Assembly: GCA_903884185.1 (NCBI GenBank)
Contig: CAISDV010000122.1
Coordinates: 62,001 to 126,000 of the forward strand
Source of the DNA: an uncultured Chitinophagaceae bacterium
Lineage (GTDB): Bacteria > Bacteroidota > Bacteroidia > Chitinophagales > Chitinophagaceae
Direction: 5' to 3'
DNA length: 64,000 nucleotides
Both the position numbers and the translations under genes were made by a program. How positions within the stretch are numbered: position 1 is the first letter of the stretch; each line of letters starts with the position of its first letter. Shown piece after piece: positions 1 through 45,499 of this stretch. The notes under the pieces are model-generated. The model did not search any database. It was not told where the DNA came from and saw nothing but the letters and a program-made list of their open reading frames with translations.

Positions 1-27
1 TTGTAAACACGCTGGTATTCTCTTTTA

Positions 28-414
28 GTGCATGTATCTTTAAAAAATATGCAAGCCTTATACAACCACGGCGGGGAATTGATCGCTTACCACCATCAAA
101 ATATGTTGCTTCATCCATATGATTTAGAGGTGTTAGGTCTTGTCCTTGGAAATTGCGTATTTGACCGGCAGGCCAGGATACTTGGCAAATTGGTGCATCA
201 AAAAATATACAATCTTTCAGGTGAAGTACTGGCCCGTCAATCTGATTCACCTGGTCCGCTACCCGAAAAATTTTCTGAGGATCATTGCGTCCAGCAAGCC
301 TGGCAAATACTTACAATGATCAAAGACCATAATTGCCCATGGGTCACTACCAGGGATACCTGGTCACGCGATTCCCTCGCGGGTTATTTGTACACACAGG
401 CTATGATCTATTAG
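28..414 (+). CDS. Conserved-looking hypothetical protein
   Basis: I do not recognise a named family. The 128-residue product has no signal peptide and no membrane segment, so it is probably cytosolic. It has a striking NHGGELIAYHH stretch at residues 13-23 and several Trp and Cys residues in the C-terminal half. The start may be GTG at 28 or ATG at 49; an in-frame TAA at 4-6 prevents a longer protein, so the gene is complete. Its stop overlaps the end of the convergent phosphodiesterase gene by four bases, so the two genes share no room for a separate terminator. Function unknown. Confidence 0.55.
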   Translation: MHVSLKNMQALYNHGGELIAYHHQNMLLHPYDLEVLGLVLGNCVFDRQARILGKLVHQKIYNLSGEVLARQSDSPGPLPEKFSEDHCVQQAWQILTMIKDHNCPWVTTRDTWSRDSLAGYLYTQAMIY

Positions 415-10889: not shown

Positions 10890-11084
10890 TTATGCCAACT
10901 CATATTCTACCTTAAGCGGCGTTTCCATTTTTTGTGATGCGTTCAATACTTCTATGCCAACTATATTTTTTGAACTATCATAATCAAGTATAATTCCGGG
11001 TTTATCGCTATCGCTCTCTGCCACAGGATGATCGCTGAACTGAATGTAGAGTATATCAACTTCCTTATCATATCTAAGTTTCAT
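10890..11084 (-). CDS. DUF2283 domain-containing small protein
   Basis: A 64-residue protein matching the DUF2283 pattern along its whole length: the start MKLRYDKEVDILYIQF, a central PGIILDYDS turn and the NIVGIEVLNAS strand. Members are small, probably cytosolic, and often lie beside toxin-antitoxin-like genes, but no biochemical function is established. Here it stands alone, with a repeat cluster immediately downstream and a 217-base gap upstream before a divergent gene, so it is probably a single-gene transcript. Confidence 0.85.
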   Translation of the reverse strand: MKLRYDKEVDILYIQFSDHPVAESDSDKPGIILDYDSSKNIVGIEVLNASQKMETPLKVEYELA

Positions 11085-11301
11085 GGCTGATAGTATTTAT
11101 TGATTTTAGAGGTTTTATACGCTGTAACCACTACAGGGGGCTGCTTTGCCTCATTCACAAATATACGCAGTAAGGTGTCGTTATTTTGTGTTACATAAAT
11201 ATTACTTCATGAAGATTTATTCATTAATAAATCGTGATCGAATTATTAATTCCACCGTTGGTTGTTTGATACCAGTTATTTTTCTTTAAGATTTGTAACG
11301 T
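11085..11301. other. A/T-rich divergent intergenic region
   Basis: This 217-base gap lies between the divergent DUF2283 and actin-like genes. It is A/T rich and must contain both promoters. A TTTG near 11264 and TAAGATTTG at 11287-11295 loosely resemble minus-33 and minus-7 boxes for the rightward gene, but the minus-7 has one base too many and sits too close to the ATG. An in-frame TAA at 11296-11298 directly precedes the actin-like start and fixes its N terminus. Confidence 0.4.
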
Positions 11302-12333
11302 ATGAAAATCCTCTCTAACAGTTTTCCCAGCGTTTTTGAAACTGCGTATGGGAACACAGAAAATACTGCCCGCAACCTGCTGAATGGTTTAAAGATAAAA
11401 AAAGACAATAGCTGGTACCTGGTGGGCAACCTCGCTAAAAAAGGCGGCGTCAATCCACAGCGAATCATCAATGCATCGCCCACAGAGAACAGTTATGATC
11501 TTTTATTTAAAGCTGCCATGGTAACGCTGGCTAACCAAATGCCTAACCCGGTTTGTATTACTACCGGCTTTCCACTTTCTGCGTATAATGCCTATAAACA
11601 GCCGGCGGAAACTTATTTGAATAAGAAACATTTTCTTATTGAATATGATACAAAGACCTTTAATAATGGAGGTAATATACAGCATGCTACCTTTGACCTT
11701 GACGTATTTGAAGTGATTCCTGAGATAGTAGGTTGTATTATCGGGCTGAAAAAGCTTCTTCATTATAAAGCTCCATCACAATTTATTGCCATCAGTCTTG
11801 GTTTTGGAACGGTGGAAGGTGGAATGGTATCGGAAGACGGGATGGTGTACAGGACATGCTTCAGTTCCCACGGTATTCAATATGCAGTGGGTAACCTGCA
11901 AAAAGAACTATCAAGGAAATTTTACCTGGAGATGAAAAATATTCATCAGATGGATGATGCCTTTGTGCGCGGCAATATTGTCATTAACCGGAAGAGAATG
12001 GATATTAAAGAGGTTAGGAAAGTTATTTTACAGCAATATTACCGTGAAGTGGTATCGCCTCTTATCCGAAAATATTTAAGTGATGCCGATTTTGAGAACT
12101 GTGAAAAGATATACCTGATGGGTGGTGGTGCATTATACCCTGAACTGGTAGATGCATTTGGTGAAGAGTTTGCAGAAACTATTCCAGTAGAGATAGTGCC
12201 TGAACCTGAAAAACTCGCGAGCATTGGCTACCTCTATAATTCTCTAAAAATTTCAGGCCAGTTTCCGGGCAAATGTGCGGGTGTTGACATAGGCAACTCA
12301 TCAACTGTCATATCCATTTTCGAGCAAACATAA
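11302..12333 (+). CDS. Actin-like (ParM/Alp-type) protein with apparent circular permutation
   Basis: Predicted nucleotide-binding filament protein of the actin/ParM superfamily. Motifs in order: FPSVF at 8-12, ITTGFPLSAY at 86-95 (like the Alp/ParM GLP segment), the phosphate-2 region ISLGFGTVEGG at 164-174, adenosine motif IYLMGGGALYPEL at 270-282, an ASIGYLYN segment near 306-313, and finally GVDIGNSSTVISIF at 327-340. The last is a textbook phosphate-1 hairpin, which in normal actin-like proteins is the first strand; here the N terminus lacks it and begins at the FPS segment that normally follows it. An in-frame TAA two codons before the ATG rules out a missed N-terminal extension. The usual phosphate-2 Asp is Ser165. 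A bactofilin gene follows after 10 bases. ParM-like assignment is firm; permutation is inferred from motif order. Confidence 0.8.
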   Translation: MKILSNSFPSVFETAYGNTENTARNLLNGLKIKKDNSWYLVGNLAKKGGVNPQRIINASPTENSYDLLFKAAMVTLANQMPNPVCITTGFPLSAYNAYKQPAETYLNKKHFLIEYDTKTFNNGGNIQHATFDLDVFEVIPEIVGCIIGLKKLLHYKAPSQFIAISLGFGTVEGGMVSEDGMVYRTCFSSHGIQYAVGNLQKELSRKFYLEMKNIHQMDDAFVRGNIVINRKRMDIKEVRKVILQQYYREVVSPLIRKYLSDADFENCEKIYLMGGGALYPELVDAFGEEFAETIPVEIVPEPEKLASIGYLYNSLKISGQFPGKCAGVDIGNSSTVISIFEQT

Positions 12334-12343
12334 ATCCTGTTGC

Positions 12344-12715
12344 ATGATCTTTTTCTTCCTTGCCAGGTTTTGCGTACCAAAAAAAATTGTTATCAAAGGA
12401 AATGTAGAAGCTAAATGTTCCTGCATTGTGAGAGGGAAGATCGAAGGTTCGCTGCATTGTTCAAGGTCAGTACACATAAAAAAAGGTGGGGTACTGGAAG
12501 GAAACCTTCATGCAAAAAAAGTAAAGATCAGGGGTGCTGTCTGGGGAGATGTACATGCAAATAAAATGAGTGTTTTCCCCGGTGGTTATGTGCGAGGGAA
12601 AATAATAGCCAACAAAATCACAGTTCATGAAAATGGCCTGGTAGAAGATGTGGAAGAAGTGCAGTCAATGAAACACACAGAGCCTGAGAAGCCAGATGTG
12701 CAAACGTGGTTTTAA
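12344..12715 (+). CDS. Bactofilin (polymer-forming cytoskeletal protein)
   Basis: Bactofilins assemble into nucleotide-free filaments that scaffold envelope enzymes. The 123-residue product has the regular beta-helix pattern of the family from about residue 15 to 103, with repeating turns such as IVIKGNVEAK, IVRGKIEGSL, VHIKKGGVLEGNLHAKKV, IRGAVWGDVHANKM and VRGKIIANKITVHENG. A short hydrophobic N-terminal segment (MIFFFLARF) may contact the membrane, as reported for some bactofilins, and the tail after residue 105 is polar. It begins 10 bases after the actin-like gene and is surely co-transcribed with it, which suggests the two polymers act together. Confidence 0.85.
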   Translation: MIFFFLARFCVPKKIVIKGNVEAKCSCIVRGKIEGSLHCSRSVHIKKGGVLEGNLHAKKVKIRGAVWGDVHANKMSVFPGGYVRGKIIANKITVHENGLVEDVEEVQSMKHTEPEKPDVQTWF

Positions 12716-44473: not shown

Positions 44474-45499
44474 ATGGGACTGTTCAACTTTTTTACGCAG
44501 GAAATTGCGATCGATCTGGGTACCGCCAATACCCTGATCATACATAACGATGAAGTGGTAGTGAATGAGCCATCTATTGTTGCCCTCGACAGAAATAATC
44601 CAAAAAATGTTTTGGCTGTTGGCAAGAAGGCATTGATGATGCACGAAAAAACAAATGAGAGTATTCGCACAGTGCGTCCATTGAAAGATGGAGTGATCGC
44701 AGATTTTAATGCTGCAGAATTAATGATCAGGGAACTGATCAAATTGGTGTATCCAAAAAAACCTTTGTTTCCCCCAAGCTGGAGAATGGTAATATGTATT
44801 CCTTCTTCCATTACCGAAGTAGAAAAACGTGCGGTGCGCGATAGTGCTGAGCAAGCCGGCGCCAAAGAAGTATATATGATTCACGAACCTATGGCTGCAG
44901 CTTTAGGTATTGGTATTGATGTAGAAGAACCTGTTGGTAATATGATCATTGATATTGGTGGTGGTACAACAGGTATTACTGTAATTGCATTGGCAGGTAT
45001 TGTGTGCGATCAATCTATCAGAATTGCAGGTGATGAATTCACCGCAGACATTATGGAAGCATTGCGCCGTTATCATAGTTTATTAATTGGTGAAAGAACC
45101 GCTGAACAGATAAAGATCAATGTGGGCGCGGCTACCAAGGACCTCGACAATCCGCCAGATGACCTTCCTGTAAATGGACGTGACCTTGTAACGGGTATTC
45201 CAAAACAAGTAATGGTAAGCTACCAGGAAATTGCAGAAGCATTGGACAAAAGTATTTTTAAGATAGAAGAAGCGATATTGAAAGCACTGGAAACCACTCC
45301 ACCTGAACTGGCTTCGGATATTTACCGCCGCGGATTATATCTAACAGGAGGCGGCGCTTTACTGCGCGGATTGGATAAACGCCTGGGCGCTAAAATAAAA
45401 TTGCCGGTGCATATTGCCGATGATCCTCTGAAGAGTGTGGTGCGTGGTACCGGTATTGCATTGAAAAATTACCAGCGCTTTCCATTTATCATGAGATAA
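44474..45499 (+). CDS. mreB: Rod shape-determining protein MreB
   Basis: Bacterial actin that organises the lateral cell-wall synthesis machinery under the inner membrane. All actin-fold motifs are in the standard order: phosphate 1 IAIDLGTANTLI at 11-22, phosphate 2 MIIDIGGGTTGITVIAL near 156-172 and the adenosine motif LYLTGGGALLRGLDKRL near 288-304. It opens with a short hydrophobic segment (MGLFNFFTQ) that may aid membrane contact. Length 341 is normal. It provides a useful contrast to the other actin-like gene in this window, at 11302. First gene of the elongation operon. Confidence 0.98.
   Translation: MGLFNFFTQEIAIDLGTANTLIIHNDEVVVNEPSIVALDRNNPKNVLAVGKKALMMHEKTNESIRTVRPLKDGVIADFNAAELMIRELIKLVYPKKPLFPPSWRMVICIPSSITEVEKRAVRDSAEQAGAKEVYMIHEPMAAALGIGIDVEEPVGNMIIDIGGGTTGITVIALAGIVCDQSIRIAGDEFTADIMEALRRYHSLLIGERTAEQIKINVGAATKDLDNPPDDLPVNGRDLVTGIPKQVMVSYQEIAEALDKSIFKIEEAILKALETTPPELASDIYRRGLYLTGGGALLRGLDKRLGAKIKLPVHIADDPLKSVVRGTGIALKNYQRFPFIMR

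Follow-up and report, generated by a model that had tools for sequence, protein, structure and literature searches.

A family of actin-like proteins in Bacteroidota with a C-terminal phosphate-1 motif, a bactofilin neighbour and the features of a circular permutation

Results

An actin-like gene with its phosphate-1 motif at the C terminus

The window analysed here, a stretch of 64,000 nucleotides from an uncultured Chitinophagaceae bacterium, contains a gene for an actin-like protein followed on the same strand by a bactofilin gene. The features of the locus are as follows.

10890-11084, minus strand: small DUF2283 protein (E 9.2e-19), upstream of the actin-like gene
11296..11298, plus strand: in-frame TAA in the sequence, closing the frame one codon (CGT) before the ATG
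11302..12333, plus strand: actin-like (ParM/Alp-type) protein of 343 aa, read as circularly permuted from the ORF, profiles and homologues
11323..11337, plus strand: FPSVF, residues 8-12, at the N terminus here and after the phosphate-1 hairpin in normal-order ParMs
11722..11724, plus strand: Glu141, at what we take to be the connect-1 position; Glu in 59/59 by family alignment
11788..11817, plus strand: phosphate-2 segment AISLGFGTVE (residues 163-172), in which Ser165 (codon 11794-11796) replaces the Asp of normal-order ParMs
12109..12144, plus strand: adenosine motif IYLMGGGALYPE, residues 270-281; GGG in 59/59
12268..12330, plus strand: C-terminal beta hairpin (residues 323-343) with the phosphate-1 motif, placed by profiles, rotation and the homologue model
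12280-12306, plus strand: phosphate-1 motif GVDIGNSST, residues 327-335
12344..12715, plus strand: bactofilin (Pfam PF04519, E 3.9e-19, 69.1 bits, cut-off 27.9)

In the actin fold the motifs follow a fixed textbook order: phosphate-1 (P1), connect-1, phosphate-2 and adenosine. The initial annotation had placed the P1 motif of this protein near its C terminus and FPSVF at its start, and both placements were correct: GVDIGNSSTVISIF occupies residues 327-340, past the adenosine motif, and the N terminus reads MKILSNSFPSVFETAYG, the final segment being GVDIGNSSTVISIFEQT. The MreB encoded in the same window (44474-45499) carries its P1 motif at the N terminus, IAIDLGTANTLI at residues 11-22, as had also been described.

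The window protein matched the Pfam families ALP_N (39.8 bits, cut-off 26.3; profile positions 19-145 of 148) and MreB-like_C (31.4 bits, cut-off 27.8). Its best PHROG profile was phrog_691, 'partition protein' (71.2 bits, positions 27-303 of 329). In the native order, the first 18 positions of ALP_N and the first 26 of phrog_691 were left without a match. NCBIfam gave no match at E 0.01, and a PDB search with the single window sequence returned nothing useful.

The motif order is conserved in a family of Bacteroidota

Homologue searches yielded 64 distinct sequences, 59 of them full length including that of the window, several being closely related to one another. The search for homologues with the same motif order, proposed in the initial annotation, gave a uniform answer: all 59 full-length members, the window's included, have the permuted order, with G-x-D-x-G-N near the C terminus. 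The arrangement is not a product of chance, since it recurs in every one of these distinct sequences. None of them combines a normal N-terminal P1 motif with an extra C-terminal one, a pattern that had been named as a counter-indication. A missed N-terminal strand was ruled out, as the annotation had argued from the in-frame TAA of the window gene: 1-72 open residues precede model position 1 in the 59 members, and a P1-like pattern occurs in none of these stop-to-stop N-terminal heads.

Residues D329, G331, N332, E141, G167, G169 and E172 and the glycines of GGG 274-276 are invariant in the 59 members. The phosphate-2 Asp position is occupied by Ser in 54, Gly in four and Asn in one, and by Asp in none; among ten normal-order ParMs, Asp was present in five and the pattern was not found in the other five. 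Some homologues (L007, L023 and L024) carry proline-rich tails of about 20-40 residues after the P1 hairpin, which indicates that extensions are tolerated at the new C terminus.

The members span at least three classes of Bacteroidota. In overlapping sets of searched genomes, the window's own being counted, matches were present in 5 of 99 relatives, 21 of 394 genomes of the window's family, 15 of 396 of its order, 24 of 395 of the phylum (including G980, whose local match is unrelated), 24 of 195 in a second class (two with fragments only) and 4 of 159 in a third class (one a fragment). Named Chitinophaga records also carry the gene. In the tree, 30 rows of other classes grouped with L044 on one branch (support 91/100), and 28 rows of the window's own family fell outside it; the tree contains some long branches of uncertain placement. 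Together, the tree and the spread over classes indicate that the permuted order is old within the phylum, with a patchy distribution. L044 (G974) is the sole member found in the window's class outside its family, and its grouping with the other classes might reflect transfer. Four genomes hold two copies of the gene (L010/L022 in G254, L059/L068 in G809, L060/L067 in G853 and L087/L093 in G1061).

Moving the hairpin to the front improves the match to normal-order ParM/Alp proteins

A 26-row family alignment was rotated at many cut points and scored against ten normal-order ParM/Alp proteins of phage and plasmid origin, selected from the matches listed, all ten of which have an N-terminal P1 motif. 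With hhalign, the native order scored 167.4 over 306 columns. P1 begins at column 323, and the highest scores, 185.9-186.7 over 315-321 columns, came from cuts 315-321, immediately ahead of the P1 strand, with 186.5 at cut 321. A cut within the P1 motif, at 327, gave 169.2, and cuts elsewhere brought the score down to as little as 96.3. Deleting the hairpin gave 167.0. None of 200 shuffled hairpins placed in front reached 186.5 (maximum 175.9), nor did any of 43 other segments moved to the front (maximum 176.0). In the alignment at cut 321, the GIDIGN hairpin of the family lay on the IGSDLGYG hairpin of the phage G protein and the match continued to FPSV. A control normal-order pair in the same scan peaked at cut 0. 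A HMMER scan against the same ten ParMs peaked at the same place (318), with a gain of only 4.3 bits in total (from 280.9 to 285.2).

Profile searches of individual proteins behaved in the same manner. Moving the hairpin to the front raised the ALP_N score of the window protein from 39.8 to 47.4 bits and extended the matched profile range from 19-145 to 1-145; the scores of L044 and L058 rose from 40.7 to 49.1 and from 52.6 to 61.0 bits, a gain of 7.6-8.4 bits in three of three proteins. Against phrog_691, the window protein rose from 71.2 to 80.6 bits, with the match then starting at profile position 6, and a shuffled hairpin in front gave 72.3 bits. The corresponding changes were 74.0 to 81.3 for L044, 100.4 to 110.7 for L058 and 73.5 to 80.2 for L018, so that all four Bacteroidota proteins gained 6.7-10.3 bits. 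L069, a divergent relative described below, showed no phrog_691 gain when un-permuted (24.1 to 24.2 bits). In the Pfam control, the shuffled-hairpin construct lost ALP_N wholly and the construct lacking the hairpin kept 39.2 bits, probably a HMMER filter effect; the controls therefore rest on PHROG and hhalign. PDB searches with ten-row native and rotated profiles were mostly alike, although B. thuringiensis ParM and, weakly, AlfA entered the list with the rotated profile.

Predicted structure of a homologue

The prediction for the window protein itself, made with seven close sequences, had a pLDDT of 40.5 and was not used. The usable model is that of the Chitinophaga homologue L023, 62% identical to the window protein, built from eight rows including L069 (pLDDT 70.3, pTM 0.73). 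The homologue is predicted to have the two-lobed actin fold. In this model, strands 325-330 and 335-340 come after the last helix (305-317), and the pLDDT of the hairpin region runs from 85 to 46.

Foldseek placed Ta0583, MreB, ParM and Alp12 within the first seven matches. Structural alignment with VIA-align gave, among others, the following rows.

Ta0583 (2fsn): Z 18.5, rmsd 3.7, 262 aligned, model 1..317 on chain 18..325
Dh-cParM1 (8x1i): Z 18.3, rmsd 3.7, 282 aligned, model 2..324 on 23..364
pCBH ParM (6ixw): Z 18.1, rmsd 4.0, 271 aligned, model 1..317 on 20..349
CorM (9rmi): Z 17.1, rmsd 3.8, 266 aligned, model 1..321 on 60..378

Hsp70 proteins followed at Z 16-17. In all 50 rows listed, the aligned stretch opens with model residue 1 or 2 and stops no later than 324. 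The C-terminal hairpin of the model and the N-terminal stretch of the partner were both left unpaired, which is the pattern expected of a circular permutation.

A bactofilin gene lies downstream at most loci

The bactofilin gene of the window starts 10 nt after the actin stop, and the two genes are probably in the same operon. A bactofilin profile built up from the window's gene across these same loci (the Pfam check applies to the window's bactofilin) found a match downstream on the same strand within 1.3 kb at 52 of 59 loci. The start lay within 450 nt of the actin stop at 46 loci and at 467-1250 nt at six; the remaining seven showed no bactofilin in the 1.45-1.5 kb downstream. Bactofilin matches number three in the 2.9 Mb of the window's own genome, the one in the window included, a density that makes such frequent adjacency very unlikely to arise by chance. 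The other two (L109 and L110) sit on opposite strands of the short contig G000:C98, separated by about 320 nt. Judged by eye, the window, L002 and L024 do not share their other neighbours, and at L062, L064 and L065 a gene of about 380-400 codons that resembles TPR genes stands between actin and bactofilin. The conservation of a bactofilin downstream points to joint action of the two proteins.

A divergent relative on a viral-collection contig

A search with the 26-row alignment identified one divergent permuted relative, L069, on a contig of the IMG/VR viral collection (E 4e-11, relative to candidate stretches; 24% identity over query residues 28-336).

L069:4905-5981: permuted ParM-like gene, 358 aa
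L069:5981-6367: small ORF of 128 aa, overlapping the end of the preceding gene by one base, ParR-like by position only

An in-frame TAG one codon before the ATG closes the reading frame of the ParM-like gene, GVDVGNSSS lies near the C terminus of its product, and Ser occupies the phosphate-2 position. A VapE-like gene and a RES/Xre-like pair are nearby (the Xre match being below the Pfam cut-off), and the small next ORF matched nothing in Pfam or PHROG. Several normal-order phage ParMs also have a small gene directly downstream, in the place where the permuted family has a bactofilin instead. These features suggest, and do no more than suggest, that mobile elements also carry the permuted form as a segregation gene. 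Among the viral contigs scanned, the window protein matched none, the 26-row alignment matched L069 only, and the L069 protein recovered the same contig. The L069 protein had no match in plasmids and phages at E 0.01. L058 and L044 gave four weak matches at E 0.1 (three phage and no plasmid records for L058, one plasmid record for L044); the three distinct proteins retrieved from these records all have an N-terminal P1 motif.

Discussion

The family order, the rotation scan, the profile matches and the predicted fold of the homologue bear out the central proposal of the initial annotation, that the first hairpin was moved to the end of the protein by circular permutation, and we regard this event as well supported. 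The order of the motifs is given directly by the sequence; the placement of the hairpin comes from the profile fit and a predicted fold of medium confidence. The new termini would fall between canonical strands 2 and 3, and the first two canonical strands, the phosphate-1 strand and its hairpin partner, would be made last in the permutant. The hairpin would then fold back in cis after the final helix, beside the strand that begins with FPSVF, and rebuild a single nucleotide pocket. With the P1 Asp, the connect-1 Glu and the GGG kept and the phosphate-2 Asp lost, nucleotide binding with weak or altered hydrolysis would be expected. The actin presumably polymerises. This nucleotide-dependent protein may assemble on, or regulate, a nucleotide-independent, membrane-bound bactofilin scaffold, probably with a role in cell shape or envelope positioning. 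A permuted ParM/Alp actin with a cis hairpin, altered hydrolysis and bactofilin cooperation is the best explanation of the data, and we consider it, as one joint reading, quite probable.

The hairpin might instead be given to a neighbouring subunit, which would complete the pocket in trans and make polymerisation part of nucleotide binding itself; its position as the last element after a variable linker, and the free tails of some homologues, would allow such a strand swap, and the present results fit either arrangement, but only 7 residues connect helix 305-317 to strand 325-330 in the predicted model, which favours the cis arrangement, and we hold the swap to be improbable. The protein could alternatively be a non-polymerising nucleotide binder, acting as a switch or adaptor in the loading or positioning of bactofilin. 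The absence of the phosphate-2 Asp from all 59 members fits this possibility, as does the frequent partner, which is itself a polymer; Hsp70 chaperones, which are not known as filament proteins, also match the model (Z 16-17). The best PDB sequence-profile matches and several of the best folds, however, are the filament formers ParM, CorM and MreB, and a protein of this kind seems rather unlikely.

An ordinary plasmid or phage segregation ParM would agree with the phrog_691 'partition protein' profile and with the surroundings of L069, namely its VapE-like gene, RES/Xre-like pair and overlapping small ORF. Against it, the window protein found no match at E 1e-5 in 72,556 plasmid and 50,697 phage records, and homologues are present in single-contig genomes and mostly beside a bactofilin. 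As to a ParMRC organisation, the next gene in the window encodes a bactofilin rather than a ParR adaptor, matching the 46 loci with a bactofilin at close range. A role as a segregation ParM is thus very unlikely for the window protein. A normal-order or truncated Alp, having lost its N-terminal hairpin and carrying the C-terminal motif as an unrelated extra, could account for native profile matches that begin past the P1 hairpin. It was rejected on the invariance of the C-terminal motif, the rotation and shuffle tests and the lack of an N-terminal P1 in any member, and is hardly credible.

The window protein is actin-like by fold and motifs and is not a canonical ParM by motif order, phosphate-2 residue or partner. 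It resembles the ParM/Alp proteins (pCBH ParM 6ixw/6izr, Dh-cParM1 8x1i, phage G gp506; PHROG 691, ALP_N) over about 270-320 residues, both by profile and in the predicted fold, and has the connect-1 Glu and adenosine motif in common with them; it differs in the C-terminal position of the first hairpin and the replaced phosphate-2 Asp. The archaeal actin homologue Ta0583 (2fsj, 2fsk, 2fsn) is the best structural match among the rows listed, but its first 17 residues, which presumably contain its P1 motif, have no partner at the N terminus of the model. CorM of Anabaena is a further structural match, with model residue 1 on chain residue 60. FcmB of Nostoc is described as a plasmid-partition actin that now serves in cell shape, and the abstract mentions neither permutation nor a bactofilin link (PMC12645912). 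We would tentatively suggest a ParM of a mobile element as the likely ancestor of the permuted family, and L069 may be what remains of that lineage.

We are aware of no actin-family protein that is a natural circular permutant. The GTPase fold of YRG and cpRAS is unrelated to the actin fold. In those permuted GTPases, the same kind of natural change in motif order has affected a nucleotide-binding fold (PMC2430557). In line with the statement of the initial annotation that it was aware of no described example, none of the papers listed by our literature searches was seen to describe a permuted actin, and the accessible sections of PMC12667903, PMC7824862 and PMC1079889 describe none. The last of these does state, in general terms, that circular permutation may relate families within one kinase fold group, and its ribonuclease H-like group contains the actin superfamily (PMC1079889). 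The pairing of an actin-like gene with a bactofilin gene was likewise not among the literature matches listed, and the bactofilin linkage of the permuted actin is new here.

More broadly, and tentatively, the family may represent a deep lineage of permuted actins, spread over at least three classes of a single phylum and present on at least one contig resembling a mobile element, that forms a two-component cytoskeleton with a co-transcribed bactofilin; we regard this wider picture as possible rather than probable. In such a system, the free C-terminal P1 hairpin and the completion of the pocket, in cis or by strand swap, could gate assembly. A conserved natural permutant would mean that the motif order of actin is not essential, and it would open a new way to study how the protein folds and its polymers assemble. 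Searches that rely on an N-terminal motif would miss permuted actins. Because bactofilins assemble without nucleotides, as stated in the accessible part of PMC12448750, the linkage of the two genes provides a testable route to the function of both the actin and the bactofilin.
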